Virus record (IMG/VR): IMGVR_UViG_3300046517_000733
Span: 1-28,902 of that record
DNA from: a virus
DNA: 28,902 nucleotides
Direction: 5' to 3' (one strand)
Shown: one piece after another, positions 5,175 to 28,448 of the stretch
Numbering within the stretch: the first letter of the stretch is position 1
Layout of the letters: every line of letters starts with the position of its first letter
The notes under the pieces: generated by a model
Told to the model about the DNA's origin: nothing
The model's database searches: none
Seen by the model: only the letters and a program-made list of their open reading frames with translations
Translations under genes and position numbers: made by a program

Positions 5175-5183
5175 GTCCCCAAG

Positions 5184-5211: not shown

Positions 5212-5221
5212 GACCCCAGGC

Positions 5222-9782: not shown

Positions 9783-9824
9783 GCGGCTGCCACCCTCGGT
9801 CAGCGCGGCCTGCCTGTGGCCAGT

Positions 9825-10112: not shown

Positions 10113-10118
10113 GAAGAC

Positions 10119-13100: not shown

Positions 13101-14027
13101 AGTGGCGGTCTGCGCGGTGACCCACGCGAGCGGCGGCGGCCCCGACAGCTGCTGCTGCTGCGGCCACTGGAAATGCTTCCGCCAGGTTCGGCCGGGGTTG
13201 AACTGTGGCGCGGCGGCGGCACTGACCGTGACGATCTGCTGCGGGCCAAGCGCGGTCGCGGTCGCGGTCGCGGTGATGGGGTTGGCCTGGGTCATCACCG
13301 GGCCGGGCGGCTGCTGGTTAAAGAGCTGCGGCTTGCGGAATTGTCTCAGCCACGTCCGGCCGGGGAGTGCCTGCACACCCGGCGGCGGCGCTGATGGCAG
13401 CACCTCGACGGCGAGCACAGCCCACGGGTCGCCGGAAGCGGTCAGCGTCCACGACACCGTGACACTGCTGCCGGTCGCCGGGGCGGTCGAACCGGCCGCG
13501 TTGCCTACCGCATCGCCCGCGCTGCCCCGGAGGTTCTCGATGAACCGCGACGTGTTCCCCGACGAGACGATCGTGTCACCGGTACCAAGGAACCCGGCGA
13601 TCAGGTTCCCGCTGGTGTTACTGGAGACCGCCACACTGCCAGTGACCGACGTGCCTGACGCAGTGAACGGCGTGGCCACGCCGCCGGCGCCAGAGAATGA
13701 GATCGAGCCAGCGGACAGGTCATCGGGTGTGCCACCGGCTGCGGTGACCAGGATCGTGTGGTTCCCGGACGACCGGCCGCCGATCGACCAGACCTGCAGG
13801 AAACCGGCGGTCTGCGCGTCGGACTCGACCCGGCCCAGCGAGGTCATCGCGGTGCCGTCGCACGTGCAGGTCATGCTGAACGCGGCGTCGCTGGGCGCGT
13901 CGAGCGCACAGCCCACCAGGAGCGTCACACCACCCGCGACAGCGGCATGCGTCCACGTCAGGGTCGTCTGATTGGTGTTGCCGGTGCCAGCGGCGGATGG
14001 CCCTACGGCGTCAAAGGCGACTGCCAT
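10119..14027 (-). CDS. giant virion surface protein with glycoside-hydrolase-like domain and Trp-rich repeats
   Basis: The 1302-residue protein has a modular layout. Residues 1-~212 are a beta-sandwich-like domain (TLTWTHAAVAGGVTLLVG; VTVSWTLTASGDPWAVLAVE). Two Trp boxes follow (~219 and ~276, GRTW..F..PQ). Residues ~330-785 look like an apiosidase-like/DUF4038 glycoside hydrolase: QAWLLPSNAGRWN, FAARAAQGYTAWYGIAWNN, HVFWFFGDDDD, RPLISTESFTNC, and a beta domain with SVTPAGTLAVIYCKAAMSIT. Five further Trp boxes and short Ala/Thr/Gly repeats (NA-x-A-x-A-T-G-T-A-L-G-Q-D-T/N-G-A-N) fill ~790-1302. Family members act on carbohydrates, so the protein may degrade or bind host glycan as a fibre or tail surface protein. 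ATG at 14027 with an AGGTGA site. The hydrolase call is by pattern; the catalytic residues are not proven. Confidence 0.82.
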   Translation of the reverse strand: MAVAFDAVGPSAAGTGNTNQTTLTWTHAAVAGGVTLLVGCALDAPSDAAFSMTCTCDGTAMTSLGRVESDAQTAGFLQVWSIGGRSSGNHTILVTAAGGTPDDLSAGSISFSGAGGVATPFTASGTSVTGSVAVSSNTSGNLIAGFLGTGDTIVSSGNTSRFIENLRGSAGDAVGNAAGSTAPATGSSVTVSWTLTASGDPWAVLAVEVLPSAPPPGVQALPGRTWLRQFRKPQLFNQQPPGPVMTQANPITATATATALGPQQIVTVSAAAAPQFNPGRTWRKHFQWPQQQQLSGPPPLAWVTAQTATATGTANGLKPYPAGLGGTGYNSWFTNQFGAPELMVIEQAWLLPSNAGRWNSGNWQSDMDAYFAARAAQGYTAWYGIAWNNVHVDTTALSGGRTWDGIYPLNINGTPGAIATGSETITLNSAFWTRIDYLFTAARSQGVACFLNISQSYDISSAGSVWQNATNTQGTAFGAALTARYPQATYPHVFWFFGDDDDGPNDSFYQAILTGMQGAGDARPLISTESFTNCNSHIEFDNGTAFSGAFGVPNATYNWVYSYDAPYFGCEASYKEGGSFPHIPPVYGDGVYYGDSGSGTTPDRAIRNFVWWALSSGSRGFPSTSGPSLIGVGPTSLWQWASGSVSWLTTDPNGTFTTSGVGQIASFFSGLADWNKLIPDTGNVFITAGRGTRGTCDAPGGAFNFRNSSTYVAGSVTPAGTLAVIYCKAAMSITIDQTKLGAGYTATWVDPLSLATQAATPGSTFNSTPLGNNSAGDPDWVLVFQGPPVTPAASAGYALPGRTWLRRFKHPQQFAPPAPAGATVTNVNAGLASGTATSLGQDTDATFDVIVAPNAGVASATGTALGQDTGADIAMVSPNAAVAAGTGTARGFDTGDMLPGVAYPPQRAQPSPVWLKFFHHPQQPVPPAPFNVYPAPALATATALGQDNNATFDASVAPNAAVAPATGTSLGNDTGANEPAVTVNAGLAGGTATALDATSSVPGAAQAQAYPGAVWRHFFKHPQQFIPPAPFSVYPSVALATGTALGQDAGANIAMVSPNAAMAPATGTSLGNDTGANEPAVTVNAQTATAVASALDATTTIPGPPPAQAYPGAVWRHFFHHPQQFVPPAPVIVTSTNANAGLASATATALGQDNGANIAFVSPNAANATASGTAPGQDNGTNTAFVSPNAGLASASGAALGPNPQVTVNAGLAAGTGTAQNLTPASASAAAATFAQPGGVWRKHFQHPQQWRPFVPPPPPVFIPATGTATVSDVNTGIATVFDAHDGLATVGETGGGVASVS
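10270..11640 (-). repeat. tandem repeat array in the giant surface protein gene (period about 300 bp in part)
   Basis: Five Trp boxes (W-x3-F-x-HPQQ followed by Pro) are encoded near 10270-10315, 10640-10700, 10939-10996, 11239-11299 and 11572-11632. Between them lie copies of the ~25-residue ALGQD-type repeat. DNA identity is high between adjacent units: 39 bases starting at 10672 recur exactly at 10972, a 300-bp shift, and blocks around 10779 and 11079 also line up at 300 bp. Such repeats evolve by recombination and unequal crossing-over. Two more diverged Trp boxes lie outside the array (near 13141-13197 and 13311-13375). Confidence 0.85.
10711..10719. repeat. nine-base G tract (C9 on the coding strand) in the surface protein gene
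   Basis: Nine Gs in a row on the plus strand, inside the PGPPPAQ-encoding part of the fibre gene near residue 1104. This is the longest homopolymer I noticed in the window. The corresponding position in the neighbouring 300-bp repeat unit is not a homopolymer. Confidence 0.9.
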
Positions 14028-14842: not shown

Positions 14843-14855
14843 TAGGCTCCCCGTA
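14843..14855 (+). promoter_or_regulatory. possible leaderless -10 for the plus-strand fusion gene
   Basis: TAGGCT (14843-14848) fits the actinobacterial TANNNT -10 and ends six bases before the ATG at 14855. The ATG has no convincing ribosome binding site, so a leaderless transcript is possible. No clear -35 is visible. This is weak, context-based evidence. Confidence 0.25.
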
Positions 14856-16186
14856 TGCGGATACTGCTCGGCTACACAAAGGCGGGTCTTGATCCCGATA
14901 CCCGCGATCAGGTGGCCGGGCTACCCGGGGCCGAGCTGGTGGACGTGTCTGCTGACGATTTCGCCTACTGGCGGGCGATCGAAGAGCGGTGGACCGGTGA
15001 TGAAGATCTGCTGATCATCGAGCAGGACATGATCATCCACGACGGGGTGGTGCCGCAGCTGCTCGCCTGCCCGCAGCAGTGGTGCGTCTTCCCCTACCCG
15101 ATTTTCAACTCGGGCCAGCGGCTCACCCAGGGCCTCGGCTGCACCCGTTTCGGTGCTGCCCTTCAGCGGCAGATCCCCGCCGCCGAGTTCGAGCGTGACG
15201 GCAAGCTGCGCAACATCATCGACCCGGACCTGACCGGTGTCCCGTGGCAGTTCCTGGACCTGGTCATCGCCGGGCGGCTGCGCCTCGGGCACGGGCTGAA
15301 ACCGCACGTCCACACCCCCGACGTGGAGCACCGTCATGACTATTCCGGGCCACCGACGCTTGGGCCGCCCGGGTTCAAGCGCCATCCCGGTGAGCCGGCG
15401 AAGCATCCTGACGATGACCCGCTGGCGGTGTATCACCGCCCTATCCCGGTCATGTTCGACCCGGTGCGCCAGCCGGCCGGTATTCAGGTGTATGGCGCGG
15501 AGATGAGCGAGGTCAGCTGCCCCGATGATGCTGCCCGGCTGGCTAACGCCCTCCAGGCCCGCTACATGAACGCGGACGGCTCACCGCGCTACGTGCCCGC
15601 CCAGTACGACACCGACCGGCCGCCCGCTTTGCGGTTCGCCAGCGACAAGGTCTGGCAGGGCTATCTGCCGTCCTACCTGAAGATGGCAGCGGAGATCGGC
15701 ACCGCCGGCCGGGTGTGTGAGATCGGCGTGCTGCGCGGCGAGTCACTGCATATGTGGCAGGCCCTGTTTCCCGGTGGGGTCGTCGCCGGGGTGGACCGTA
15801 GCAAGGAAGCCGTGTGGCCGCAGGAGAGCGTGCAGATCATCGCCAGCCAGGAAGATGACGATCTGCCCAGTAAGCTCGCGGCGGTCTGCCCTGCCTGGGA
15901 TCTGATCGTGGATGACGCCTCCCACCTGGGGAAGCTGACCCGCATTACCTGGGAGCTGCTGTGGCCGCTGGTGGAGCCCGGTGGCTGGTATGTGATCGAG
16001 GACTGGTTCGTCGGCTACGGGAACCACCCGCTGCACGCCGGTGACCATTCGATGATGCGCACCGCCGAGTCGTTCCTGGCGCTATTCAGTGAGCAGGGCG
16101 GTGAGGTGGAGTCGGTGGAATACCGTTACGGGCTGATCATCATGCGGAAGGCACCCGCCAGTAGCCGTAGTCAGCCTGCCAGATAG
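14855..16186 (+). CDS. glycosyltransferase-like / SAM methyltransferase fusion
   Basis: The 443-residue protein is one of only two plausible plus-strand genes. Residues 1-~165 look like a glycosyltransferase A-fold: MRILLGYTKAG, DLLIIEQDMIIHDGVV (with an acidic D-x-x motif), and WQFLDLVIAGRL followed by His-rich HVHTPDVEHRHDY. Residues ~265-435 are a class I methyltransferase: CEIGVLRGESLHMWQ (motif I), AGVDRS (motif II acid), WDLIVDDASHLGKL and GGWYVIEDW, like the CmcI/rhamnosyl O-methyltransferase group. Fusion suggests transfer and methylation of a sugar on one acceptor. The gene converges with the TylF-like gene and overlaps it by 47 nt at the ends. It is divergent from the virion surface gene at 14706, so it needs its own promoter. 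Confidence 0.8.
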   Translation: MRILLGYTKAGLDPDTRDQVAGLPGAELVDVSADDFAYWRAIEERWTGDEDLLIIEQDMIIHDGVVPQLLACPQQWCVFPYPIFNSGQRLTQGLGCTRFGAALQRQIPAAEFERDGKLRNIIDPDLTGVPWQFLDLVIAGRLRLGHGLKPHVHTPDVEHRHDYSGPPTLGPPGFKRHPGEPAKHPDDDPLAVYHRPIPVMFDPVRQPAGIQVYGAEMSEVSCPDDAARLANALQARYMNADGSPRYVPAQYDTDRPPALRFASDKVWQGYLPSYLKMAAEIGTAGRVCEIGVLRGESLHMWQALFPGGVVAGVDRSKEAVWPQESVQIIASQEDDDLPSKLAAVCPAWDLIVDDASHLGKLTRITWELLWPLVEPGGWYVIEDWFVGYGNHPLHAGDHSMMRTAESFLALFSEQGGEVESVEYRYGLIIMRKAPASSRSQPAR

Positions 16187-16856
16187 GCGTGGTGATGCCG
16201 TACTTCGCCCGGTATTCGGTCACTGCTTCGCGGCAGGATTTGAACCACCAGTCGTCAATGATGACGAACCCGCCGGGTGACACCTTCGGGTACAGGGCTT
16301 CCAGTGCAGTCATGGTCGAGGAGTACAGATCGCCATCGAGCCGCAGCAGCGCCAGCCGCTCGATGGGGGCGGTGGCCAGGGTCTCATCGAACCAGCCGGG
16401 CAGGAACTGGACCTGCTCATCGAGCAGGCCGTAGCCAGCGAAGTTCGCCTTCACCTCATCGAGCGGCACGGCCAGCTCGGGCATGTCGAACCAGCCCTCC
16501 TCGCCGCCATGCTCAACGCTGGGCATCCCCGCGAACGAGTCCGCCACCCACACGGTGCGGCTGGTGTCACCGTGGGTCTTGAGGATGGCCCGCATGAAGA
16601 TGCAGGCCCCGCCGCGCCACACCCCGGTCTCGATCAGGTCACCAGGCACGTCGTCGGCGAGGATCTTCTCCACGCACTCCTGAATGTTGCCCAGCCGCTC
16701 CAGGCCGATCATCGTCGGGGCATGAACCGGCCAGTCCGCACCCCGGGCGCGGTCATACCGGCTGAATTCGCTGCGATGGTTGTTGCCGTACACCGGGATG
16801 CAAGGGTCTTCGTCCTTGATCCCGGTGAGGGACAGCTTCAGCAGTTCCAGATCCAT
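16140..16856 (-). CDS. TylF/macrocin-type O-methyltransferase
   Basis: The 238-residue protein matches the TylF family: DLIETGVWRGGACIFMRA (73-90), VWVADSFAGMPS, LALLRLDGDLYSSTMTALEA with DGD at 174-176, and GGFVIIDDWWF (195-205). These enzymes methylate sugar hydroxyls in a metal-dependent way, with the DGD and DD acidic residues binding the metal. The length is close to that of the core of the family. The ATG overlaps the upstream stop as TAATG. The last 47 nt overlap the end of the convergent plus-strand fusion gene. Together they suggest a methylated glycan is made. The acceptor is unknown. Confidence 0.88.
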   Translation of the reverse strand: MDLELLKLSLTGIKDEDPCIPVYGNNHRSEFSRYDRARGADWPVHAPTMIGLERLGNIQECVEKILADDVPGDLIETGVWRGGACIFMRAILKTHGDTSRTVWVADSFAGMPSVEHGGEEGWFDMPELAVPLDEVKANFAGYGLLDEQVQFLPGWFDETLATAPIERLALLRLDGDLYSSTMTALEALYPKVSPGGFVIIDDWWFKSCREAVTEYRAKYGITTPIWQADYGYWRVPSA

Positions 16857-18005: not shown

Positions 18006-18329
18006 TCACTTCGGCTTGTTAGGGCTGCCCGGAGGCCGGCCTGGCCCGCGCTTGCGCATCTCCATGGGAAGGTTCTCTTCACTCTCCTCTGCCCCGGCGG
18101 GCGGGGCCACTGCCTGGGCAGCTGCGGGCTCTGCGCGTACCTCCACGGCAGGGTCAGGCGGAGGTGCGGCGACCTCCACCTTGCGCTCTTCCGCTACCGG
18201 TACCGCCAGTCCGCCGGCGACCAGCTCGGGGCCTTCCCAGTCGGGTACCTCGAACTCCGCCCCGAAAGCCGGCCAGTCTGAGCCGTCGTGGCGGGGGCCG
18301 CTCATCTGCTGGATCATGCGGACTTTCAC
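18006..18329 (-). CDS. small head-tail-region protein with AT-hook-like basic tail
   Basis: The 107-residue protein opens VKVRMIQQMSGPRHDGSDWP then FEVPDWEGPELVAGGLAVPV, the pattern of small phage proteins often found near head-tail joining genes. A low-complexity Ala/Pro/Glu stretch follows, and it ends in RKRGPGRPPGSPNKPK, an AT-hook-like core (GRP) in a basic tail, suggesting nucleic-acid contact. The GTG at 18329 overlaps the glycosyltransferase stop as GTGA, with AGGAGG eight bases upstream, better than the longer frame. It lies at the end of the sugar cassette and may be translationally coupled to it. Confidence 0.75.
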   Translation of the reverse strand: MKVRMIQQMSGPRHDGSDWPAFGAEFEVPDWEGPELVAGGLAVPVAEERKVEVAAPPPDPAVEVRAEPAAAQAVAPPAGAEESEENLPMEMRKRGPGRPPGSPNKPK

Positions 18330-19405
18330 GTCAGTACCTCCTGGTACGCGGCGGCCCACCTATGCCAGTTGCCCTCAATCGTATGCTGGGCAGCCAGCTC
18401 GCGGGCTTTGGCACCCATGCTCTCACGCAGGTCAGCGTCGGCCACGAGTTCGCGGATGCGGTCCCGCCACTGCTGCTTGGTGGTGACCAGGAACCCGGTC
18501 ACCCCGTCGATGACGAACCCTGGATAGGGGCCGAAATCGGAAGCGACGACGGGGATGCCCATCGCCGCATATTCAAGGGCCTTCAGGTGGCTCTTGGAAT
18601 AGTTGAACCGGGTGGGCGCAAGTGGCGCGAGCCCGATGTCGAAATCGAGGCTCTGGGCCATGCCCAGGCAGTAGTCAGCCGGGTTGTCCACCCACTTGGT
18701 GTGGTAGGCGTGGTTGTGGCCAAGGGTGGGCCGGTAGTCCACTCCCACCACGTGCAGCCGCAGACTGGGGTCGCGGTCGAGAACCTTGCGCACCGAGGTG
18801 GCGATCGTCGCAATGTCCATGGCGTGGCTCGCGCCGCCGGCGTAGCCGATCGTCACATGCTTACTGCGCTTGCGCTCGGTGGTGAGCACTGAGGCGGGCA
18901 GGTAGTTGCCGATCACCTTCACGTTGGGATGATCGGTACGCGCCCGGACTGTCTCGGCCAGCGCCTCGGTGGTCACGGTCACCAGGTCGGAAGTGACGAT
19001 GGAGCTTTCAACCGCGTCGATCACCGACAGCCGGCTGAACACGCTGTAGGCATTGAAGTTGGTCACATCGACGTTCCACACGTCGTCGTCTATCTCGTAG
19101 GCGAGCCGGTGGCCCTGCCGCAGCCGCCGCCACGCCCCGAGCACCTGCGGGCGGTCCAGCCGTTCACCGACGATCAGCCGGTAGCCCGCCACCTCGGCGG
19201 GTGGGGTGAACGCCTGATAATGCACCTTCCACCCGTGGGCAGCTAGCTGGTCGAGGGGGAGAGTGATGCGGAAATACCCACAACCTGTGGGCATCGGGTT
19301 GCCCTCGGCCTGGGCATCATGAATACCCCAGACGCTTGGGGTGAAAGGAGGCGGTGCCGCCGTTGGAGGCTTGGCTTCCGTACTTCCTTTGGACGGCTCC
19401 GTCAT
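18326..19405 (-). CDS. GT4-type glycosyltransferase
   Basis: The 359-residue protein has a GT-B fold. The N-terminal part opens with a Pro-rich ~30-residue leader, then PTGCGYFRITLPLDQLAAHG and RLAYEIDDDVWN. The C-terminal part has VTIGYAGGASHAMD, LRLHVVGVDYRP, FDIGLAPLAP and the typical SKSHLKALEYAAMGIPVVAS with Glu in the sugar-nucleotide loop. Retaining GT4 enzymes add sugars to many acceptors. It is the last gene of the cassette and overlaps the next gene as GTGA. ATG at 19405 follows the GT2 gene after 9 nt. Acceptor and donor are unknown. Confidence 0.88.
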   Translation of the reverse strand: MTEPSKGSTEAKPPTAAPPPFTPSVWGIHDAQAEGNPMPTGCGYFRITLPLDQLAAHGWKVHYQAFTPPAEVAGYRLIVGERLDRPQVLGAWRRLRQGHRLAYEIDDDVWNVDVTNFNAYSVFSRLSVIDAVESSIVTSDLVTVTTEALAETVRARTDHPNVKVIGNYLPASVLTTERKRSKHVTIGYAGGASHAMDIATIATSVRKVLDRDPSLRLHVVGVDYRPTLGHNHAYHTKWVDNPADYCLGMAQSLDFDIGLAPLAPTRFNYSKSHLKALEYAAMGIPVVASDFGPYPGFVIDGVTGFLVTTKQQWRDRIRELVADADLRESMGAKARELAAQHTIEGNWHRWAAAYQEVLT

Positions 19406-19414
19406 TCCGTCAGC

Positions 19415-20029
19415 CTAACGGTAGGCGCTCGGCCACACATCCACTGTCACCCACGGGATGAACTGGGCCTCGACGCCCTTTTCCATCCACCTGTTCACCA
19501 GCCGCCAGTCTTCCATCGTGTCGGGTGGCCCCCAGGTGGAGATCTCCAGCAGCTCCCGCCGGTGCATGATCATGGGCGTGCCGATGGCGCAGGGGGCGAC
19601 TTCCCCGGTGCCGACGATCCCCGGTGGCACGTTCGGGCTCGCATGGACGGCCATCTGGGTGTATGCGAACCCGATCTCTGGGTGATCCTCCAGTGCCCGC
19701 ACCAGCTGGGCACAGTGATCGAGCCGGTAGGAGTCATCGTCATCGAGGTAGGCGATCAGGCCGGCGGTGGCTAGTTCCAGGCCACGCAGCCGGGCACGTG
19801 TCCCCCACCGGGGATCGGGGTTCGGCGGCAGCTGGTCGAAGACGACCGGAATATCGGTGGGCTCCCGGGCGGCGATCAGTTCCGCTAGCACGGGGTCGGG
19901 ACCGTCACTGATGATGACATGCTCGATGTGGCGATACTCCTGCGCCTGCACCGAGGCGATGCAGCGGTCAAACAGCCACTCATGCCGCTGCCAGGTCGGC
20001 GTGATCACCGACACCAGCGGGTCGCTCAT
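19415..20029 (-). CDS. GT2-type glycosyltransferase
   Basis: The 204-residue protein is a GT-A enzyme of family 2: PLVSVITPTWQRHEWLFDRC, EHVIISDGPDPVLAEL, RARLRGLELATAGLIAYLDD with a D-x-D (DDDD) motif for the metal and sugar nucleotide, and FAYTQMAVHAS. It is short, consisting of little more than the core, and has no membrane helix. It lies 1 nt after the preceding glycosyltransferase stop. It is likely soluble and adds a single sugar. Donor and acceptor cannot be read from the sequence. Confidence 0.87.
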   Translation of the reverse strand: MSDPLVSVITPTWQRHEWLFDRCIASVQAQEYRHIEHVIISDGPDPVLAELIAAREPTDIPVVFDQLPPNPDPRWGTRARLRGLELATAGLIAYLDDDDSYRLDHCAQLVRALEDHPEIGFAYTQMAVHASPNVPPGIVGTGEVAPCAIGTPMIMHRRELLEISTWGPPDTMEDWRLVNRWMEKGVEAQFIPWVTVDVWPSAYR

Positions 20030-20030
20030 C

Positions 20031-20771
20031 TCACCACCAGGAACCCCAGTGACGCGGGATATTCAGTCCCATGTTAAACGCTAGCAGCTCATCTGGGGTG
20101 AAGCCGGGATTCCCCGGGTCGATCTGGCCAATGTCGGTGTTCAGCTGCCCGGACTCACAGTACCGGTGCCAGTTTTCCAGATCTTCAGGGATCAGATTCG
20201 TGGACGCCTGGTAGGACGCATCGGTCTGGCCGGTGAGGGTGTAGTGGAGGTGCGGAATGTCCACCTCATGCAGGTAGGTGATCCCGGTCTTCACGCCCCA
20301 TGCCATCCAGGCCACATCGACATACATGTGCCGGATGCCGGGTGGCCCGAAATAACCGAGCCGCTGAACCACCTCACTGCGCATGAACACATGGCAGCAG
20401 AGCTGGCCGGGCGGGCGCGGGTAGTGATCGTTGCCAAAAGCGAACGGCGTCTTCTCCAGCGCCTCCATGATCGACACATCCCAGCCCACCGTGTCGAACG
20501 TGTTGTCGTCACCGACGTGGCCGATGTAGCGATAGTTCTCAGCCTGCGGGACGGCGAGGCGGTTGATCCAGGCAACCACCTGGCGCAGGCCGGTCTGCAC
20601 GGTGTAGGAGAGCGGCGTGGCAGCCAGGTAATCACTCAGTGATGGGTCGTCGTCATCGAGCCCGACGATGATGCTGGTGTCCCCCCGGCAGGTTGCCTGC
20701 ATGGCATCGAACAGCCGCTTGATGTTGCCCGGCCGGCCACGACTGGGCACGACCAGCAGCAGGTCTTTCAT
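20031..20771 (-). CDS. GT-A-type glycosyltransferase
   Basis: The 246-residue protein starts MKDLLLVVPSRGRPGNIKRL and has TSIIVGLDDDDPSLSDYLAA with the acidic D-x-D cluster, and ENYRYIGHVGDDNTFDTVGW, a second D-D. Later GYFGPPGIRHMYVDVAWMAW resembles the acceptor region. This is a GT-A fold. ATG at 20771 was chosen since it overlaps the upstream stop as ATGA, nine codons inside the longest frame. It belongs to the continuous cassette. Specificity is unknown. Confidence 0.78.
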   Translation of the reverse strand: MKDLLLVVPSRGRPGNIKRLFDAMQATCRGDTSIIVGLDDDDPSLSDYLAATPLSYTVQTGLRQVVAWINRLAVPQAENYRYIGHVGDDNTFDTVGWDVSIMEALEKTPFAFGNDHYPRPPGQLCCHVFMRSEVVQRLGYFGPPGIRHMYVDVAWMAWGVKTGITYLHEVDIPHLHYTLTGQTDASYQASTNLIPEDLENWHRYCESGQLNTDIGQIDPGNPGFTPDELLAFNMGLNIPRHWGSWW

Positions 20772-21424
20772 GTCATCGGCCCGATGTGGGTGAGCCATTC
20801 GTACTCAGGCAGCGGCTCCCAGCCGGGCAGGGGGTCGCGGCTGACCTGGAAGTGGTCACCGCTCCGGAACCGGTAGTAGTACATCTCTTCGTCAATGAAA
20901 ACCTCGGTCTGCACCCGGCCATTGGCCCGCACTTGTTCCGCCCACTTAACCTCAGCCCCGTATCCCCCGGCCCATTCGCCAAGCAGGGCCAGCTCGCGGC
21001 GCATCGGGTTCTTCTCGGACAGATCCCGGACGAGCATCCCTTCGCGGGTGTCCCAGCAGTGGTACTTCAGCGAATGCACGACGGGCATGCCGGGCTGCCC
21101 GTCCACGGTGTAGCAGATCTTGAACCCCACATAGTCGGGCCGTGTCAGCAGCGCCGGCCAGACGCGTTTGATGAAATGCGGGGCCACCAGGTCGTCGTCA
21201 TCAATGCAGGAGACGTAGTCGGCCGTCGAGTGGGCGAGCATGGCCCCGATCTTGTTTCCGTAGGGGGTCTCCAGGTTGTCGCGGAAGCAGATCACCCGGA
21301 CATGCGGGTAGAAGTCCGGCATCTGCGGGGCCAGGACGGCCAGCAGCTCGGTCATCGTGTCGTGGCGGTGGGGGATGGAGCAGATGCAGATATCCCAGGT
21401 GGGTGCGTGGATCTGCGGGCTCAT
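20768..21424 (-). CDS. GT-A-type glycosyltransferase
   Basis: The 218-residue protein has ICICSIPHRHDTMTELLAVL, VRVICFRDNLETPYGNKIGA, HSTADYVSCIDDDDLVAPHF (with the DDDD metal-binding motif) and the later GDHFQVSRDPLPGWE. This is the GT-A fold of the GT2-like group. It overlaps the preceding dehydrogenase-like gene by ATGA and the next by 4 nt. The set of four adjacent glycosyltransferases suggests an oligosaccharide with several different linkages. Donor is unknown. Confidence 0.75.
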   Translation of the reverse strand: MSPQIHAPTWDICICSIPHRHDTMTELLAVLAPQMPDFYPHVRVICFRDNLETPYGNKIGAMLAHSTADYVSCIDDDDLVAPHFIKRVWPALLTRPDYVGFKICYTVDGQPGMPVVHSLKYHCWDTREGMLVRDLSEKNPMRRELALLGEWAGGYGAEVKWAEQVRANGRVQTEVFIDEEMYYYRFRSGDHFQVSRDPLPGWEPLPEYEWLTHIGPMT

Positions 21425-22182
21425 TTGGTGTACCGCTCATTCTGTAGCCGGATGTCTTCCAGGAACCACGCCTGGTATCCCATGCCGTCTGCCGCCATCA
21501 TCAGCGCGGTCAGGTCTTTCGGCCAGCACTTGCCGCCGAAACCGGGCAGGAACCCTTCCATCGCCGTGTACGCGGGATTGATCCTGAAGTCCATCAGCCA
21601 CGCCTCACGCACGCTCGCCCAGTCCGCACCGAACGCCGCGCAGACGCCGGCCATCTCGTTGACGAACGTGACCCGCGTAGCCCAGTACAGATTCGCCACG
21701 TACTTTGCCAGCTCGGCCTCGGTAGATGAGCATTCGTGGATCGGGGAGGGGAACGCTTTCTCCAGGAATGGCCGGAAGTAGAGCCGGGCCTCTGGCTCGC
21801 CGCCGAGGATCATCCACGGCACATAGATGCTCTTGTGCCACGGGCCACCGTTTCGTTCGTGGATGAACTCGGGCGCGAAAGCGAACAGGTGGCCGGGGTA
21901 GTCGAGGGCTAGCTTTGCGGTAGTGCCTGGCGGCACGGTGGAGCGCAGCAGAACGGGCATCATGGGCAGGTCGTCCAGGGCGGCCAGGATTGCGCTAAGG
22001 TCCGCACTGCCGTCGTCACGGGCGGGGGTGCCGACGCAAATCACGGCGAAGTCACAGCTGCCGATCAGTTTGCGGGGGTAAGGCTCACTGTCACGAATGT
22101 CGTAGGTGATGACCTTGCCGGTGCGGAAAAGCTGCTCCTGCGCCTGCCCGACGACGCCCATGCCGATGATGGCGACCTTCAT
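21421..22182 (-). CDS. short UDP-glucose/GDP-mannose dehydrogenase-like protein
   Basis: The 253-residue protein opens MKVAIIGMGVVGQAQEQLFR (GxGxxG at 7-12), has ICVGTPARDDGSADL, LLRSTVPPGTTAKLAL, FAPEFIHER, ELAKYVANLYWATRVTFVNE and GFLPGFGGKCWPKDL, in which C219 matches the catalytic Cys of nucleotide-sugar dehydrogenases. Normal members have about 400-450 residues with a C-terminal UDP-sugar-binding domain, which is absent here. It could be a minimal dehydrogenase, a reductase-like derivative or act with another subunit. The cassette order and ATGA overlaps place it in sugar-nucleotide synthesis, but a lack of the last domain makes uronic acid formation uncertain. Confidence 0.83.
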   Translation of the reverse strand: MKVAIIGMGVVGQAQEQLFRTGKVITYDIRDSEPYPRKLIGSCDFAVICVGTPARDDGSADLSAILAALDDLPMMPVLLRSTVPPGTTAKLALDYPGHLFAFAPEFIHERNGGPWHKSIYVPWMILGGEPEARLYFRPFLEKAFPSPIHECSSTEAELAKYVANLYWATRVTFVNEMAGVCAAFGADWASVREAWLMDFRINPAYTAMEGFLPGFGGKCWPKDLTALMMAADGMGYQAWFLEDIRLQNERYTK

Positions 22183-22526
22183 GGCAGTAGTGGCACCTCC
22201 AGCCTTTCGGTGTCCGATTCGTAATCCACGCCACTGCGTGGGCCTCTGGTGAAGACCAGCACCGTGGTGTCCTCCAGTGCCTGCCAGGCATGGGCTACCC
22301 CAGGCAGATCACAGACCATTTCCCCAGGCTCATAGACGTGATCCTCGCCCCGGCTGGTAACCATCCGCAGGCGGCCCGACACAACGTAGGTCCACTGCGT
22401 GGTGTGCTGATGGTAATGGTTGCCACGGATCGCGCCCTTGCGGGTGAAGATCTGTGTCACCGCATCGAGTGGGGTGCTCAGCAAGTCCTGGATGACGCCC
22501 CGGCCATCCTCGAAGCGATCGGGCAT
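22179..22526 (-). CDS. cupin, sugar-nucleotide epimerase/ketoisomerase-like
   Basis: The 115-residue single cupin has the metal-type motif RGNHYHQHTTQWTYVVSGRL (H37, H39) and the second cupin motif PGEMVCDLPGVAHAWQ (H79), with the remaining beta strands. Small cupins in sugar cassettes are often dTDP-sugar epimerases or ketoisomerases (RmlC/FdtA-like), but a general cupin function cannot be excluded. It overlaps the C-methyltransferase as TAATG and the dehydrogenase by 4 nt. It probably acts on the same keto sugar as the C-methyltransferase. Confidence 0.78.
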   Translation of the reverse strand: MPDRFEDGRGVIQDLLSTPLDAVTQIFTRKGAIRGNHYHQHTTQWTYVVSGRLRMVTSRGEDHVYEPGEMVCDLPGVAHAWQALEDTTVLVFTRGPRSGVDYESDTERLEVPLLP

Positions 22527-23656
22527 TAGTCGGTGATCTCCGGTTCCGGGAGGGGGATGATGAATTTTCCCTTGTACCCTGCACTGCGCAGCTTAGGTAT
22601 CAGGCCGTCACGCAGATGCCAGGACAGCAGCAGGGCGTGCGGCGGCTGGTCGGCGAGCAGCTTCTCCTCATCCACCACCGGGATCGTGGTGCCCGGCATG
22701 ACGGTGCCAATCTTCTCGCTGCCGGTGATCTCGCAGACGCAGTCGATGAACTTTGCGATCCCCGTGTAATGGATCAGCGGCGTGGCACGGGTGGTCGCGC
22801 CGATACCGTAAACAGGCCCGGCGGTAGCGGCTGAATCAAGCATGCCGTATAGCGACCGGGCAACCGCGACTGCACGCAGGCCCAGGGTGCGTCCCTGCCA
22901 TTTGCGGGCCGTCACCCTGAATGACCCACCGTGAATAGGCACCCGCTGGTAGTCCGCGACGCTCAGGTCGTGCATCTCCAGCAGGTAGCTCAGTGACGCG
23001 AGCGAGTAATACCGCAGGTGCTCATGGTAGATCGTGTCGATCTGGAGCCCTTCAGCGACCGATGCCCAGTCGTGGTTCTCAGTCACGAACAGGCCCTGGT
23101 CAGACAGGAGGCTAGTCACGCCGGCGAGAAAACCATGCACGTCTGGCACGTGGGCGAGCACGTTGGCAGCGGTGATCAGCTTCGCAGGCCCATATTGCTT
23201 ATAGAGGGCGTCCGCGAGACCGGGGCTGAAGAACTCCCGCCGGACATCAATCCCGTCGCCCATCTTGCGGGCCTGATTGGTCGGCTCAACCCCCACCAGG
23301 CGCAGGCCGCCCTTGAACATGGCGAAGGCTCTCAGCAGGGTGCCGTCGTTAGCCCCGATGTCCACGACGAGATCCCCGTCGTTCAGCCCTGACAGCAGCC
23401 ACATCGCCAGCTGGGCGAAGTGCTGCCGCAGCGCCCTGGTGTTACCCGAGGCGTATGGATGGGCGGGGGGGAAGACCAGCCGGGGGTCAGCTATGTGGGT
23501 CAGCTGGGCAAGGTGGCAGTTCCTGCATTCCACGAGCCGCAGCGAATACCGGGGGGCGTCGGTGCGCATGTTCTCGGGCAGCGGCACCGACCCCATGTTC
23601 AGCAGGAGGGTCAGCGTCCCGTAGCCGCAGACCTGGCAGGACCGGGCTTCACCCAT
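22526..23656 (-). CDS. sugar C-methyltransferase (NovU/TylCIII/EvaC-like)
   Basis: The 376-residue protein has all three parts of the family: an N-terminal zinc-binding part with C7, C10 and C44, C47 (CQVC, CRNC), a SAM-binding core (DGDLVVDIGANDGTLLRAF), and the characteristic TIYHEHLRYYSLASL (208-222), followed by GGSFRVTARK and a C-terminal domain (VYGIGATTRATPLIHY). Known members add a methyl to C-3 of dTDP-4-keto-6-deoxysugars, making branched sugars. That reaction would need a 4-keto sugar made by the neighbouring SDR enzyme or by the host. It overlaps the epimerase by 8 nt. Confidence 0.88.
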   Translation of the reverse strand: MGEARSCQVCGYGTLTLLLNMGSVPLPENMRTDAPRYSLRLVECRNCHLAQLTHIADPRLVFPPAHPYASGNTRALRQHFAQLAMWLLSGLNDGDLVVDIGANDGTLLRAFAMFKGGLRLVGVEPTNQARKMGDGIDVRREFFSPGLADALYKQYGPAKLITAANVLAHVPDVHGFLAGVTSLLSDQGLFVTENHDWASVAEGLQIDTIYHEHLRYYSLASLSYLLEMHDLSVADYQRVPIHGGSFRVTARKWQGRTLGLRAVAVARSLYGMLDSAATAGPVYGIGATTRATPLIHYTGIAKFIDCVCEITGSEKIGTVMPGTTIPVVDEEKLLADQPPHALLLSWHLRDGLIPKLRSAGYKGKFIIPLPEPEITD

Positions 23657-24605
23657 GAGTCTTGTACCAGTCCACGGTGCGGGCCATGCCGTCGTGGAAA
23701 CCCCACCGGGGGCGGTAACCGCCAGCAGCCTCGGTCTTGGCCATATCCGGGAGCCGGCGCGGCGGTGAGCCTTTCGGCAGCGTGCCCGGCAGGATCTTGA
23801 TCTCCCGGCCGTAGCATTCGGCTACCTTCCGGGCGACGGCGGAGATGGACCGCTCGTCCATCCTGCCCACGTTGTAGATAGCCGGCGAATCGCCAGTGTC
23901 CAGCAGTGAGACGAGCTGGTCGGTGCAGTCTTCGATGTAGCAGAACGCCCGCGTTTCCTGGCCGCTGCCCTGAATGGGGAACTCGATGATTCCCTCTGGC
24001 TGCTCATGCACGAGGCGGTTCATGCGGATGCAGAACTCGGGGATCACGTGCTCGCGGCCCATGTCAGGGCCGTAGATGTTGTGCGGGCGGGCGATGATCA
24101 GCCGGTCGAGCACGCCGGCCCGGTGCCAGGCGTTCGCCATGACCTCGCAGGCGATCTTCCCGCCGCCGTAGGAGTAGCGAGGGTTCAGCGGGTCAGGGAC
24201 CGTCAGCGGGATCGTCTCCGGGGTCGGCACCACCGACGCCACCTGGTATGCCTCCGAGGAGGACATCAGCATTAGGTTGCCGACGCCGTGCTGCTCGCAG
24301 GCATTGAGGATGTTCAGCATCCCCCGGACCGCGACATCGAGCACCTGCCGGGGCTCGGCGTAAAACGTCTGGGTGCCTTGCAGGTAGGCCAGGTGGATGA
24401 CGCAGTCCTGGCCGTGGACAGCCGAATGCACCTTCAATTCCTGGCGGACATCACCGGGAATGAGGGTGATAGGCAGTCCGGCCAGGCGGTCAGCGCGGCC
24501 ACGGGAAAAGTCATCGAGGACGGTCGCATTGTGGCCATCGGCCACCAGGCGCTTGACGAGGGCAGAGCCGATGAAGCCGGCACCACCGGTCACCAGGTAC
24601 TTCAC
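23649..24605 (-). CDS. NAD-dependent epimerase/dehydratase (extended SDR)
   Basis: The 318-residue extended SDR has the NAD motif TGGAGFIGS (6-14), an acidic pair DD at 31-32 for NAD binding, and the catalytic triad Ser-Tyr-Lys with SSSEAY (115-120) and YGGGK (146-150). Later parts include HNIYGPDMGREHVIPEF and PGTLPKGSPPRRL. This is the family of UDP-glucose 4-epimerase, dTDP-glucose 4,6-dehydratase and related enzymes; which one cannot be decided by eye. The GTG at 24605 has AGGAGG 7 nt upstream and is the first gene of the cassette, followed by 8 overlapping genes. A 6-bp inverted repeat surrounds its ribosome binding site. Confidence 0.9.
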   Translation of the reverse strand: MKYLVTGGAGFIGSALVKRLVADGHNATVLDDFSRGRADRLAGLPITLIPGDVRQELKVHSAVHGQDCVIHLAYLQGTQTFYAEPRQVLDVAVRGMLNILNACEQHGVGNLMLMSSSEAYQVASVVPTPETIPLTVPDPLNPRYSYGGGKIACEVMANAWHRAGVLDRLIIARPHNIYGPDMGREHVIPEFCIRMNRLVHEQPEGIIEFPIQGSGQETRAFCYIEDCTDQLVSLLDTGDSPAIYNVGRMDERSISAVARKVAECYGREIKILPGTLPKGSPPRRLPDMAKTEAAGGYRPRWGFHDGMARTVDWYKTHG

Positions 24606-24649
24606 GGGCGGCCTCCTGGGGGCTGGGGACTGCCCGTCAGGTTAGCAGG

Positions 24650-24835
24650 CTAGACCTGCCGCCACGGGGCAGAGTCCGCGAAGTCACCAGTCACATGGCC
24701 ACCCTGAAGACTCGCCGGCCCAGAGTTGTCATCGAGCTTCACCCATGCCGCGACAGGAGCGTCGGAGCACGAGTCCCATGGCTGCCCGTCCACGGATGGA
24801 GTCGAGGTGATGGGCGAGGAGACTGGCTGAGCCAT
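24650..24835 (-). CDS. small head-region protein with W-R-Q-V tail (third copy)
   Basis: The 61-residue protein contains SDAPVAAWVKLDDNSGP and ends VTGDFADSAPWRQV. The end is the shared C-terminal motif of three tandem small proteins. The ATG at 24835 lies 2 nt after the previous stop; a CAGG lies upstream. It may be a head decoration or cement protein or an unrelated small factor. Function unknown. Confidence 0.68.
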   Translation of the reverse strand: MAQPVSSPITSTPSVDGQPWDSCSDAPVAAWVKLDDNSGPASLQGGHVTGDFADSAPWRQV

Positions 24836-24837
24836 CG

Positions 24838-25077
24838 CTATACCTGCTTCCAGAGCCCGTTGTCAGGAAAGTCTTCGCCAGTGCGCCGGCCCGTGTTCAG
24901 GTCCACCGCGCCGGCCTGGATCTTGTCAAACCCGGCCAGGGGAGCCTGGCTCGACGGCTCGTAGTAAGCCTCCTGGTAAGGATTACTGCTGACGTGCGGC
25001 GGCTCGGTGATCGTCCGCAGCGGCGGGATCTCGTGGGCTGGGTTCGCCGCGTCGGGTGGCATCGGCATGGAGGCCAT
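24838..25077 (-). CDS. small head-region protein with W-K-Q-V tail (second copy)
   Basis: The 79-residue Pro-rich protein contains SSNPYQEAYYEPSSQAPLAG and ends RTGEDFPDNGLWKQV, the same type of tail as its neighbours. The ATG at 25077 overlaps the previous stop by one base (TGATG) and has GGAAGGAAG upstream, so I preferred it to the GTG five codons earlier. Probably translated with the other two small genes. Not recognised in a known family. Confidence 0.72.
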   Translation of the reverse strand: MASMPMPPDAANPAHEIPPLRTITEPPHVSSNPYQEAYYEPSSQAPLAGFDKIQAGAVDLNTGRRTGEDFPDNGLWKQV

Positions 25078-25364
25078 CAGACTTCCTTCCACTCGCCGCC
25101 GATGGTGATCGCCTGGAAATTCCCGCCGCCATCATTTCCATGCGAGACGGGAACATGCTGCTGCTCACCGGGATGCACGACAGGGAACTGAGTGCTGTTG
25201 GTGAATTCGGGCAGTGGCAGGTTGTCCATCCGGTCGGGCACCGGGATGATCCCCGCGCTGCCCGGCGCGGACATCGACCACTTGCGGTCATCGGCCGTGG
25301 TGTTGCCCGCACCCATCGAGCTGGGCACAAGGTTCGACATGAGCCTGCCGGTGAGGTCTTCCAT
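25077..25364 (-). CDS. small head-region protein with W-K-E-V tail (first copy)
   Basis: The 95-residue protein opens MEDLTGRLMSNLVPSSMGAG, then PEFTNSTQFPVVHPG and HGNDGGGNFQ, and ends ITIGGEWKEV. The tail matches the motif of the two following small proteins. The ATG at 25364 overlaps the upstream stop by one base. All three follow the capsid gene, where cement or decoration proteins usually lie. Function is inferred from position. Confidence 0.72.
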   Translation of the reverse strand: MEDLTGRLMSNLVPSSMGAGNTTADDRKWSMSAPGSAGIIPVPDRMDNLPLPEFTNSTQFPVVHPGEQQHVPVSHGNDGGGNFQAITIGGEWKEV

Positions 25365-25939
25365 CAGGTGCCCGGCCCGCTGTGCGGCGGGTGCTTGCTG
25401 GTGTGCTCGGTGCCGTTGAGCCGGCCGCCGTACATCACGCTGCCCGCACCGGTCTGGAACTGGCCGCTGCCCGGGATGGGAGTGTTGCCTTCGACGCCGG
25501 GCATGTTCCAGCCGGGGCCGTAGGAGTTGTCGTTGGCCTGCGTCCAGTCGGCTTCACCGGAGATCGAGTCGTGGACGGTGAGCTGCTTGTAGCCGGCACC
25601 GCTCGCCTCGTTCCACGAGCCCGGCTCATCCACGACCTCGTAGATGCCCTTGTAGAAGGTGGGCTTGGAGACAACGATCGTGTCCGGGCCACCCGCCAGG
25701 TCGCGGCCGATGCCCTGCGTGCCGGGTGCCCCGGTGCCGTTGAGGGACACGCCAGTGAAGGTCTCACGGCTGGGGTACTGGCCGGGCTCGTTCGTGTCGC
25801 CCTGGTCCACGTCGCTGGAGGTGGGCGAGCCGCCGGCCGCACCCGAGCCAAAGCTCTGCTCGGGCAGGCCGAAATCACTCCACTCCGTGGTCGGGTACTG
25901 GCCCGGCTGGTTCACAGAGCCGCTGTTGTAAGTTGCCAT
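25364..25939 (-). CDS. glycine/proline-rich head-region protein with PGQYP repeats
   Basis: The 191-residue protein has two copies of N-x-PGQYP (residues 10-16 and 50-56, 40 residues apart), then GAPGTQGIGRDLAGGPDTIV and GIYEVVDEPGSWNEASG, QLTVHDSISGEADWTQ and a polar tail. No transmembrane helix or known domain. The ATG has GGAGG eight bases upstream. It is the first gene after the capsid and its hairpin. It is probably a virion or capsid-associated protein. Function unknown. Confidence 0.75.
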   Translation of the reverse strand: MATYNSGSVNQPGQYPTTEWSDFGLPEQSFGSGAAGGSPTSSDVDQGDTNEPGQYPSRETFTGVSLNGTGAPGTQGIGRDLAGGPDTIVVSKPTFYKGIYEVVDEPGSWNEASGAGYKQLTVHDSISGEADWTQANDNSYGPGWNMPGVEGNTPIPGSGQFQTGAGSVMYGGRLNGTEHTSKHPPHSGPGT

Positions 25940-26008: not shown

Positions 26009-27319
26009 CTAAGTTGCCGGCCCCTGGAAGAGCTTAATCGCGCCGGTCTGGTCAACCAGCGTGCCGTCGCCACGGATCAGGGCGCGGAAGGCGACCAGGT
26101 CCGAGCCGAACAGGAAGTCGTCCGACCGCTCGAAGCGGACCGGGCCGACGATGCGGACGAAGAACTGGCTGAAGTCGCCGAATGCGACCGACTTGCCACC
26201 AGTGACCACAGCTGGCATGAACGGGTCCGCCACCAGTGGCTTGCCGAGCAGAAGGTCAGGCGATCCGAGGACCATCGACGGCTCCCAGATCGGCCGCGAC
26301 TGGCCGTCCAGCAGCAGCCGGAAGCCGCCGACCGCCGCGTCCCTCGCCAGCCAGTAGCAGCTCTTGCTCTGACGGTAGGGAGCGATGACGCTGTACTCCA
26401 GGTTGACCAGGTCGCTGTACTGGGCAGCGCCACCCTTGGCGGTCGTGGTACCGGTGACACCGACCGATGCGGTGGCGATCAGGCCGTTCGGCATCGTGGT
26501 GCCGGTGCCGGTCACCAGGTCGGAACCGAACTTGTTGCCCAGCGCCCGGCCGGACTGCATGGCCAGGTACCCGACAAGGTCCACACCCGAGTCGTCCAGC
26601 AGCTCGCGGGCTACCTGGAGCAGGATGCCGTACTTGAACGCACCCAGGGTGACCAGGCCGAACTGCGGGTCCGACTGGGCGATGTTGCCGGCCTGGGTGG
26701 TCAGCGTCGCCGACGAGTGCGCAGTCGTCTTCGGGATCTGGAGGTTCTCGCCGCCGGCCGTGTTGAGCACGGTCGGGCCGGTCTGGAGAATGCCGCTGAC
26801 CTCGATCAGGTGGGCGATCAGCTGGTCATAGAAGTCGGTCGGGACCAGGTTCTGGCCCGAGCCGGCGTTGGTGGACACCAGGGTCCGGTACTCAGCCTCG
26901 GCCCTGCGGACCTCGGCCAGGTTGACCGGGCCGTAGTTCCAGTTGATCCGGCTGTTGTCCGGGCGGGCCACCTCGTAGGCACCACCGGGAGCGTTACCCC
27001 GGGTGTCGCCGAGCAGGAACTTGCGCAGCTCGGTGTTGAGCAGCTTGATGGCCGGGTCTTTCGCCATCTTCTTGCCCTCAGCGTCGGCGTGCAGGCGGTT
27101 GAACGCCTGGTCGGCCTCGGCGGAACGCTGCTCAGCGTCGAGCGCTGACTTGATGCGGGTGTCGAGGGTGTCCATCTCCTCGTTGAGGACATCCCACTTG
27201 CCCTGCTCTTCTGCGGAAAATGCGCGGTTCTCGGTCGCCGCCGTGTCTGCCAGTGCCTTGCACTGCTCCCAGACGTTGAGGCGGCGGTCCCGAAGGCGCT
27301 TGGTGACCTCGCTGGCCAT
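26009..27319 (-). CDS. HK97-fold major capsid protein
   Basis: The 436-residue protein has an N-terminal helical delta (scaffold-like) region of about 80 residues (VTKRLRDRRLNVWEQCKALA, RAFSAEEQGKWDVLNEEMD), followed by the HK97 capsid fold: NAGSGQNLVPTDFYDQLIAH, GILQTGPTVLNTAGGENLQI, GLVTLGAFKYGILLQVAREL, LDDSGVDLVGYLAMQSGRAL, YWLARDAAVGGFRLLLDG and VVTGGKSVAFGDFSQFFVRI. The capsomers form the icosahedral shell; the delta region is normally removed by the protease encoded next door. The ATG at 27319 has AGGAGG six bases upstream, so expression is probably high. The upstream gap carries a copy of the repeated intergenic element. Confidence 0.94.
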   Translation of the reverse strand: MASEVTKRLRDRRLNVWEQCKALADTAATENRAFSAEEQGKWDVLNEEMDTLDTRIKSALDAEQRSAEADQAFNRLHADAEGKKMAKDPAIKLLNTELRKFLLGDTRGNAPGGAYEVARPDNSRINWNYGPVNLAEVRRAEAEYRTLVSTNAGSGQNLVPTDFYDQLIAHLIEVSGILQTGPTVLNTAGGENLQIPKTTAHSSATLTTQAGNIAQSDPQFGLVTLGAFKYGILLQVARELLDDSGVDLVGYLAMQSGRALGNKFGSDLVTGTGTTMPNGLIATASVGVTGTTTAKGGAAQYSDLVNLEYSVIAPYRQSKSCYWLARDAAVGGFRLLLDGQSRPIWEPSMVLGSPDLLLGKPLVADPFMPAVVTGGKSVAFGDFSQFFVRIVGPVRFERSDDFLFGSDLVAFRALIRGDGTLVDQTGAIKLFQGPAT

Positions 27320-27440: not shown

Positions 27441-28448
27441 CTACCCCTCTTCATCCCACTGGTCACGCTTGCGCAGCAGGATCTGCGTGAGCGCGGCCGG
27501 GCCGAACAGTCCCTTGCGCGGGCCAGCAGCCGGCAGGGTGGGCCGGTCGCTGCGGACGAAGAACTTGCGCAGGTCGTCGTCAGCGGCGAATGCCCGCACC
27601 TCTTCGACCTCGGCCTGGACGTAGTCGGCGATCGAATACAGCGCCGCGTCGAACGCACGCAGCATCGACGTTGTGTCACCGTAACCTGGGGTCAGCACCG
27701 GGGCCACGTCGATCAGGTCACCTGAATGCAGGGTCCGCAGCGCCAGGCCGTCGCGCCAGTCCCACTCGTCCCCGCCGGGGTGGCAGCGGAACGCGAAGCT
27801 GGAGTACCGGATGTCGCGCCGCTCGACCAGCTCACGGATGTCGGCGCGGGACTCAGGCGGCTTCACCATGTAGTCGAGGCCGATCCGGTCCGGGCTGAGC
27901 CGCAGCGTATCCGCCTCGGTCGTGCCGAGCACCATGTTCGAGTCGTGGTTGTACCGGCAGACGACCCCGGTGGCGTCATCGAGGTTCTTCCAGCCGCGTG
28001 ACTGCACCTCGTTGAAGAACGTCGGCATGACGCGCTCTTTGAACCCGCCGAGGTTCTTCGACTCGCGGGGGATGAACACGGTGGCGTAACCACCGATCCA
28101 CCGGCCCTCGCTGCCCATGTCGCGCATCTCGATCGGCCGGTCCAGGTCGCGGAACTGGCTGGTGATCCGCACCTCGCGCCGCTCGTAGTCATGCGACAGG
28201 CTGGACTCGCCGACGTGGACGCCGAACCGCTTCGCCGCCGCCTTGATCTTGGCCATCGCCTTTTCCCCGAACGGGGATGAGCTGGCGCGGGCGAGGGCGT
28301 TACGGACGTGCGAGGCGTCGTGGACGGGGAAATGCCGCAGCGAGCGGGGCGTGGTCTTCCCCTCGCCGTCTTTGGTGCCTCCCGGCTCAACGTAAGCGAA
28401 GGCACTGTCCGGGAGGTCGTTGGCCTCGGAAGTCGAGATGGCCGCCAT
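27441..28448 (-). CDS. HK97-type prohead protease with N-terminal DUF6582-like region
   Basis: The 335-residue protein has an N-terminal part (about 1-80: LPDSAFAYVEPGGTKDGEG, RHFPVHDASHVRNALARAS) resembling the DUF6582-like segment often found before phage proteases. The protease domain includes GRWIGGYATVFIPRES, VVCRYNHDSNMVLG with catalytic-type H168, and RYSSFAF with the catalytic-type Ser (S217). Prohead proteases mature the capsid by cutting scaffold and capsid delta regions. The C-terminal end (GLFGPAALTQIL) matches a segment in the upstream gene product. The ATG at 28448 lies directly after the previous stop. Followed by the capsid gene, as expected. Confidence 0.9.
   Translation of the reverse strand: MAAISTSEANDLPDSAFAYVEPGGTKDGEGKTTPRSLRHFPVHDASHVRNALARASSSPFGEKAMAKIKAAAKRFGVHVGESSLSHDYERREVRITSQFRDLDRPIEMRDMGSEGRWIGGYATVFIPRESKNLGGFKERVMPTFFNEVQSRGWKNLDDATGVVCRYNHDSNMVLGTTEADTLRLSPDRIGLDYMVKPPESRADIRELVERRDIRYSSFAFRCHPGGDEWDWRDGLALRTLHSGDLIDVAPVLTPGYGDTTSMLRAFDAALYSIADYVQAEVEEVRAFAADDDLRKFFVRSDRPTLPAAGPRKGLFGPAALTQILLRKRDQWDEEG

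Follow-up and report, generated by a model that had tools for sequence, protein, structure and literature searches.

The uncultivated viral contig IMGVR_UViG_3300046517_000733 of the IMG/VR collection, 28,902 nucleotides (28.9 kb) long with a G+C content of 65.6% and referred to here as the window, carries a set of sugar-synthesis and glycosyltransferase (GT) genes next to its capsid gene. These genes probably belong to a modular locus for glycosylation of the phage particle, in which a conserved GT pair and an exchangeable cassette build a virion glycan. A nucleotide search of INPHARED with the window yielded no relative, and the nearest capsid proteins in that collection are approximately 30% identical to the major capsid protein (MCP) of the window; the comparison was therefore based on IMG/VR contigs, where relatives of the capsid protein are encoded at 80 loci. 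Related viral loci in IMG/VR are designated by L-numbers, such as L003, L010 or L204. In GTDB, one contig from a Micromonosporaceae metagenome-assembled genome encodes an MCP with 61% identity, and a search of related orders gave weak matches. These host matches are suggestive rather than proof, and the host of this soil phage is probably an actinobacterium.

Eight open reading frames (ORFs) occupy positions 18326-24605, all on the minus strand and with a coding-like third-position GC of 0.74-0.87. Their coordinates leave gaps of 9 and 1 nt and overlaps of 1, 4, 4, 8 and 31 nt. Protein families were assigned by searches of Pfam, PHROGs, NCBIfam and the PDB. The series starts with a nucleoside diphosphate (NDP)-sugar enzyme of the short-chain dehydrogenase/reductase family (SDR; 23649-24605; Pfam Epimerase, 8e-41), followed by an NDP-sugar 3-C-methyltransferase of the TylC3/TcaB9 family (CMT; 22526-23656; Pfam Methyltransf_13/23/14, with a PF08421 match narrowly under the cut-off), a small cupin, which is a probable sugar epimerase or isomerase (22179-22526; Pfam Cupin_2, 5e-10), and a “mini” nucleotide-sugar dehydrogenase of the UDPG/MGDP type (21421-22182; PF00984, 3.5e-22, and a partial PF03721). 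Four glycosyltransferases complete the series: GTc (20768-21424; PF00535 and phrog_14775, 2e-26), GTb (20031-20798; phrog_14945, 1e-34, no Pfam match) and GTa (19415-20029; PF00535, 7e-13) are of the GT-A type, and GT1 (18326-19405; PF00534, 7e-12, and phrog_7162, 9e-53) is of the GT-B type. Upstream lie the genes for the prohead protease (27441-28448, minus strand; PF04586, 6e-24) and the HK97-type MCP (26009-27319, minus strand; PF05065, 5e-52), and downstream those for a head-tail adaptor or connector (8838-9782, minus strand; phrog_442, 4e-23), the tail terminator and the tail tube. An earlier sequence-only reading of this DNA had described the eight overlapping or abutting genes, their families and their position between capsid-region and head-tail genes. 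All of this is borne out by Pfam, PHROG and PDB matches, and for GTb by an AlphaFold2 model combined with a Foldseek search.

The unit of exchange is smaller than the eight-gene cassette of that reading. The DNA of L005, L007, L010 and L013, whose capsid proteins are 91-95% identical to that of the window, aligns from the window end to positions 24649-24651, the stop codon of a gene for a 61-aa protein. From this point on there is no DNA similarity to any of the four relatives until homology restarts at 20021-20023, immediately within the 5' end of GTa, to continue at 79-85% identity through GT1. Since homology is lost in this interval and high outside it, the SDR, CMT, cupin, dehydrogenase, GTc and GTb genes are replaced as one block (20024-24648). 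GTa and GT1 are outside the exchanged unit, in the constant region. The sequence-only reading had proposed to compare related genomes for gain or loss of the cassette as one block; such a block is indeed seen, with borders that enclose six genes and leave the last two glycosyltransferases in a conserved flank. On a 55-kb contig (L010), identity amounts to 88-96% for o117b, o106, the TylF-type and the plus-strand methyltransferase genes described below, o248, the connector, the terminator, the glycosyltransferase at 6674-7747 and the tail tube; o153 and a 1302-aa protein are among the few genes at 65-75%. Read by eye, the joints bear neither a flanking repeat nor a conserved site apart from the coding sequence; no formal repeat search was run.

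In the relatives, about 7 kb of unrelated DNA take the place of the 4.6-kb block. Encoded there are a fusion of a MobA-like nucleotidyltransferase with an APH-type kinase, methyltransferases, a different SDR and a distantly related GTb. In L007 (11156-14640) the fusion gene lies on the opposite strand between two genes without Pfam matches, and it is reminiscent of the LicC/LicA phosphocholine enzymes.

The block recurs widely, and its distribution does not follow that of the capsid. Seven loci with capsid identities of 58-77% (L020, L044, L046, L050, L055, L056 and L093) encode an SDR 62-67% and a CMT 53-57% identical to those of the window, yet both genes are absent in the relatives with 91-95% capsid identity. 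Among eight carriers, cassette and capsid identity are uncorrelated (Spearman 0.05 and -0.27). A profile search with the SDR retrieved 69 loci, 62 of them new; a CMT gene is adjacent in 55 of these 62, and CMT together with cupin in 46. The same order of SDR, CMT, cupin, dehydrogenase, GTc and GTb is found in L201, L203-L207 and L210. Because the same genes recur in dozens of independent contigs, a chance origin of the gene set is ruled out. In L204, the block is bordered by portal, protease and capsid genes on one side and by tail terminator and chaperone genes on the other, and the capsid gene is not recognizable from that of the window. A maximum-likelihood tree of the CMT groups ten rows in a phage-only clade (support 100/100); a second phage clade with the same support comprises L034, L035, L041, L058 and L081, and actinobacterial sequences fall in between. 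Given this split, the island acquired enzymes of the C-methyltransferase class on two or more occasions. In 397 sampled genomes of the phylum, no bacterial homologue exceeds 40% identity (best segment), apart from one isolated C-terminal segment at 41-47%, and the CMT is 25-28% identical to five matching INPHARED phage records.

A census of 24 MCP-selected loci with at least 9 kb downstream of the capsid gene separates constant from variable parts. Glycosyltransferases of the kinds found in the window occur downstream of the capsid gene in all 24 loci, and GTa or GT1 in 23, but the SDR and CMT pair in only three. Where the cassette differs from that of the window, GTa keeps 75-81% and GT1 76-87% identity. 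Other islands harbour O-methyltransferases, a GT of family 17, an FAD oxidoreductase and a haem-peroxidase-like protein. A domain of the latter type, resembling animal haem peroxidases, is seen in a 667-aa protein inside a phage island at L061:11541-13544.

The enzyme families of the block suggest its probable chemistry. The SDR probably catalyzes the first step, as a 4,6-dehydratase-like or decarboxylase-like enzyme. Its best PDB match is a UDP-glucuronate decarboxylase (2e-29), with dTDP-glucose 4,6-dehydratase also matched, and the NCBIfam models LegB (3e-35) and dTDP-glucose 4,6-dehydratase (2e-32) were retrieved, all under their curated cut-offs; with 112.8 bits against a cut-off of 365 for the 4,6-dehydratase model TIGR01181, the protein falls outside that family assignment. 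The motif SSSEAYQ...YSYGGGK comprises the catalytic Glu and Tyr-x3-Lys, which are kept in all phage orthologues (L052 reads SAE), and its SSE is common to GDP-mannose-dehydratase-like enzymes accompanying C-methyltransferases in L027 and L034. Because these residues of the dehydratase/decarboxylase type are conserved, the SDR more likely makes a 4-keto sugar than epimerizes C4, and a role as a simple 4-epimerase is disfavoured. The CMT aligns over its full length with D-mycarose 3-C-methyltransferase (1e-50) and TcaB9 (1e-47) in the PDB and keeps the zinc cysteines as well as the IYxEH and AHxP motifs of the active site. C-methyltransferases of the TylC3/TcaB9 type require a 4-keto sugar.

The cupin also matches Cupin_1 and, weakly and under the cut-off, Polysacc_synt_C (CapF C-terminal type). 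Its motif RGNHxHxxxxQ is kept in orthologues and resembles that of sugar epimerases and isomerases. Pfam detects no RmlC domain (PF00908) in the window cupin; a true PF00908 is present in L027. There, the island at positions 8812-12684 holds a more complete set of enzymes for a branched deoxysugar, namely a C-methyltransferase, an RmlC-type epimerase, a cupin and an enzyme of the GDP-mannose dehydratase type. The mini dehydrogenase retains the catalytic GGKCWPKD (GGxCWPKD), the Lys of ELAKY and PEFIHE (PEFxHE), and ends after the central domain without a match to the C-terminal UDP-binding domain PF03720. Because that domain is absent, a normal UDP-glucose dehydrogenase activity is not to be assumed, and its interpretation as a plain UDP-glucose dehydrogenase was rejected. 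The protein has 253-257 aa and lacks the UDP-binding domain in each of the three phages under comparison (the window, L020 and L044), and these mini dehydrogenases are possibly a distinct phage-conserved enzyme. Besides the window gene, the family includes L020:9375-10148 and copies in L199 and L201-L210; length and domain loss were checked in the window, L020 and L044.

As the sequence-only reading had proposed, these families fit the synthesis of a branched, methylated sugar and its multi-step transfer; the cassette would thus make a C-methylated sugar and support several transfer steps. That reading had also seen no sugar nucleotidyltransferase. An RmlA-type enzyme (PF00483) was likewise absent from 22 related viral records of up to 190 kb and present in all control genomes; the activated sugar must therefore come from the host.

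The glycosyltransferases link the locus to known actinobacteriophages. The AlphaFold2 model of GTb (predicted local distance difference test score, pLDDT, 89) retrieves the GT-A enzymes WrtF, AvpGT and TarP in Foldseek at about 1e-8. Relatives of GTc in INPHARED occur only in Mycobacterium, Gordonia and Actinoplanes phages, and GTc aligns with the N-terminal half of gp108 of the mycobacteriophage Che8 (26% identity, 7e-14). The C-terminal half of the same protein aligns with a TylF/macrocin-type O-methyltransferase of the window (29%, 9e-13; 16140-16856, minus strand; PF05711, 6.5e-87). No match to Che8 gp109 or gp110 was seen. The TylF-type gene is one of four backbone genes outside the eight-gene interval that the sequence-only reading had not counted among the sugar genes. 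The others are a plus-strand gene (14855-16186) for a protein with a weak C-terminal Methyltransf_24 domain below the Pfam cut-off and a match to the methyltransferase family phrog_21658 (8e-16), which is 95% identical in the L010 and L013 contigs; a CgeB-like glycosyltransferase (6674-7747, minus strand; PF13524), 88% identical in L010; and a class I methyltransferase (5975-6673, minus strand), 75% identical in L010. The closest relatives, L003-L016, have one more methyltransferase gene, which resembles part of 14855-16186 and lies between the protease and capsid genes.

In the probable scheme, GTa, GT1, the TylF-type enzyme and the other backbone methyl- and glycosyltransferases would begin and complete an O-glycan on one of the particle proteins, in the cytoplasm of the host while the late genes are expressed, and the six-gene block would set which sugars are added. 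To this end, the SDR would introduce a 4-keto group into a host-made NDP-hexose, the CMT would add a methyl branch next to it, the cupin would adjust the stereochemistry, the mini dehydrogenase would possibly oxidize a second sugar, and GTc and GTb would transfer the products. Whole-cassette swaps by recombination at gene ends would then lead to different glycan types on nearly identical particles.

Two candidate acceptors are encoded near the block. The glycans of Che8 and of cluster O phages reportedly sit at protein C-termini, and the window MCP ends in FQGPAT. Its terminal residue is Ser or Thr in 38 of 47 representatives of the lineage at 90% identity (Thr in 32), neighbouring positions vary, and the Che8 capsid protein also ends in Ser or Thr. 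Equally possible as an acceptor, or as a decoration protein, is a Gly/Pro/Thr-rich repeat protein of 191 aa (25364-25939, minus strand), which adjoins the capsid gene, is conserved through the lineage and is predicted to be disordered, AlphaFold2 giving no fold (pLDDT 49). The C-terminus of the tail tube was rejected as an acceptor; it ends in PTAGYG or PVEGYG, with no conserved terminal hydroxyl.

Several observations weigh against a glycan on the particle, or against the capsid C-terminus as its site. Three of seven control PF05065 capsid proteins also end in Ser or Thr, and those of the close relatives L003-L007 end in GNAA despite keeping GTa and GT1. The L204 capsid protein ends in VRLA, and the capsid C-terminus is therefore not the acceptor in every carrier. 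The block adjoins DNA-replication genes in L082 and L208.

The sequence-only reading had inferred a glycan on capsid or tail proteins and, as the alternative, modification of the host surface glycan. Modification of the host cell envelope, resulting in receptor masking or superinfection exclusion, would agree with phage glycosyltransferases that alter host surface glycans, which are a known class, and with the chemistry of actinobacterial surface and secondary-metabolite glycans, among which C-methylated deoxysugars and methylation of the TylF type occur. Yet neither a flippase (PF01943) nor an initiating polyprenyl-phosphate transferase (PF02397) was found in the 22 related records, with positive controls; the cassette proteins are all predicted to be soluble and without a membrane helix (highest 19-residue hydropathy, 1.38); and the genes are closely linked to late virion genes and homologous to Che8 glycosylation genes, gp108 in particular. 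We therefore regard the envelope as an unlikely target, and the virion is the better-supported part of the alternative. Glycosylation of phage DNA at hypermodified bases, as by T4-like glucosyltransferases, is highly improbable. It would account for the replication genes beside the block in L082 and L208, and Bacillus phage SP-15, known for a DNA modification of the glucuronate type, encodes a relative of the mini dehydrogenase. Against it stand the late structural operon position in most carriers, the similarity to virion-glycosylation GTs, and a thymidylate-synthase/hydroxymethylase homologue (PF00303) that is missing from all 22 relatives, including the records of 97-190 kb. Since PF01943, PF02397 and PF00303 were not found, both the envelope and the DNA readings are weakened; the records being fragments of unknown completeness, such absences are not proof.

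The sugar genes might also have been acquired horizontally without any virion role, as accessory metabolic genes or chance cargo. Fast content turnover and the presence of genes with no apparent connection to glycans (haem-peroxidase-like, DUF5753/HTH, homing endonucleases) would be in line with such cargo, but it is very unlikely in view of intact frames, catalytic residues kept at 50-70% identity across dozens of phages, a conserved gene order, the independent capture of the same enzyme class twice in one locus and the conserved GT pair at its edge.

Since near-identical phages carry a different sugar set at the same spot, they probably wear exchangeable sugar coats. Tentatively, and with rather less confidence than in virion glycosylation itself, the locus may be extended to a glycan typing system on soil-phage particles: a fixed capsid-side slot would receive interchangeable, self-contained cassettes that cross between unrelated phages and rapidly change the virion surface. 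If true, this would be a phage counterpart of O-antigen switching, with branched C-methyl sugars in the window and a nucleotidyltransferase-kinase fusion in its sister phages. Glycosylated phage particles were reportedly first described recently, in mycobacteriophages, where the glycans are said to shield virions from antibodies. Soil phages meet no antibodies, and a large lineage with a glycosyltransferase near the capsid gene on each contig of sufficient length, and with exchange of entire sugar pathways, would therefore be under another selective force, such as adhesion to surfaces, recognition of the host, grazing by protists or capture of virions by bacteria. The same backbone with two different cassettes constitutes a natural allele swap, and the cassettes offer new compact sugar C-methyltransferases and enzymes for protein glycosylation.

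The surroundings of the locus show further features. Three small paralogue-like proteins of 61, 84 and 95 aa (24650-25364, minus strand) form the left flank of the block; their common ending W[KR]xV suggests duplicated capsid-associated proteins. A DUF1707 ORF lies at the contig end (28449-28889). DUF1707 is SHOCT-like and mostly actinobacterial, and in L017 (6843-8819) a portal protein of 658 aa carries it as its C-terminal portion; the window ORF therefore probably corresponds to the last portion of a portal gene that is truncated. Upstream of the connector, the 1302-aa protein (10119-14027) combines repeated PGxTWLRxFxHPQQF units with an Apiosidase-like glycoside hydrolase domain and may serve as a glycan-binding or glycan-cleaving fibre of the head or tail. 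In L020, a tail-tube-like gene (5096-5515), 80% identical to that of the window, directly follows the capsid gene and is not in the tail region.

Homology supports membership of the locus in the actinophage kind of virion glycosylation. Virion glycosylation is reported for mycobacteriophages (Che8 gp108-110, Corndog and Myrna; Freeman et al. 2023, doi 10.1016/j.chom.2023.05.028, as cited in PMC12363180 and PMC11600133), and according to PMC12363180 Che8 virions are reported to be glycosylated by its GT cluster. In cluster O phages, modification of the capsid and the tail tube is attributed to an O-methyltransferase with three tandem GTs (PMC11600133). Che8 and the window share an actinobacterial phage background and the combination of GTs with an O-methyltransferase, and gp108 is a fusion of a GTc-like N-terminal and a TylF-like C-terminal half. 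In contrast to the window, Che8 has its genes 108-110 at the right end of the genome, remote from the capsid genes and without adjoining sugar-synthesis genes; in the window locus, complete sugar-building genes lie next to the capsid gene, and they are swapped as one block. Actinoplanes phage phiAsp2 (pas33-35) carries relatives of GTc (pas33, 33%) and GTb (N-terminal half of pas34, 27%), and Streptomyces phage Zuko encodes an SDR annotated as UDP-glucose dehydrogenase and a GT (gp4-5; gp5 is 35% identical to GT1) upstream of terminase and portal. In the stretches covered, the gene lists of both phages differ from the window in having no C-methyltransferase, no cupin and no mini dehydrogenase.

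The CMT shares domain architecture, zinc cysteines and active-site motifs with TylC3, TcaB9, EvaC and NovU, and the L027 methyltransferase is accompanied by RmlC-type epimerase and GDP-mannose-dehydratase-type genes like the partners of TylC3 and TcaB9; the window enzyme, however, belongs to a phage-specific compact clade and lies outside an antibiotic cluster. Among eukaryotic large DNA viruses, Ostreococcus viruses possess a hypervariable region flanked by capsid genes (PMC12906663) and chloroviruses an autonomous glycosylation machinery (PMC5408694), similar in the capsid-bounded variable region and the virus-encoded glycosylation but built from unrelated genes. Bacterial O-antigen, capsule and flagellin-glycosylation loci likewise combine a variable interior of sugar genes with conserved flanks and whole-cassette exchange, whereas the block of the window is phage-carried and without flippase or lipid-carrier transferase. 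New compared to these systems is a complete branched-sugar pathway beside a capsid gene, combined with precise cassette exchange within a large lineage of uncultivated phages and also outside it.

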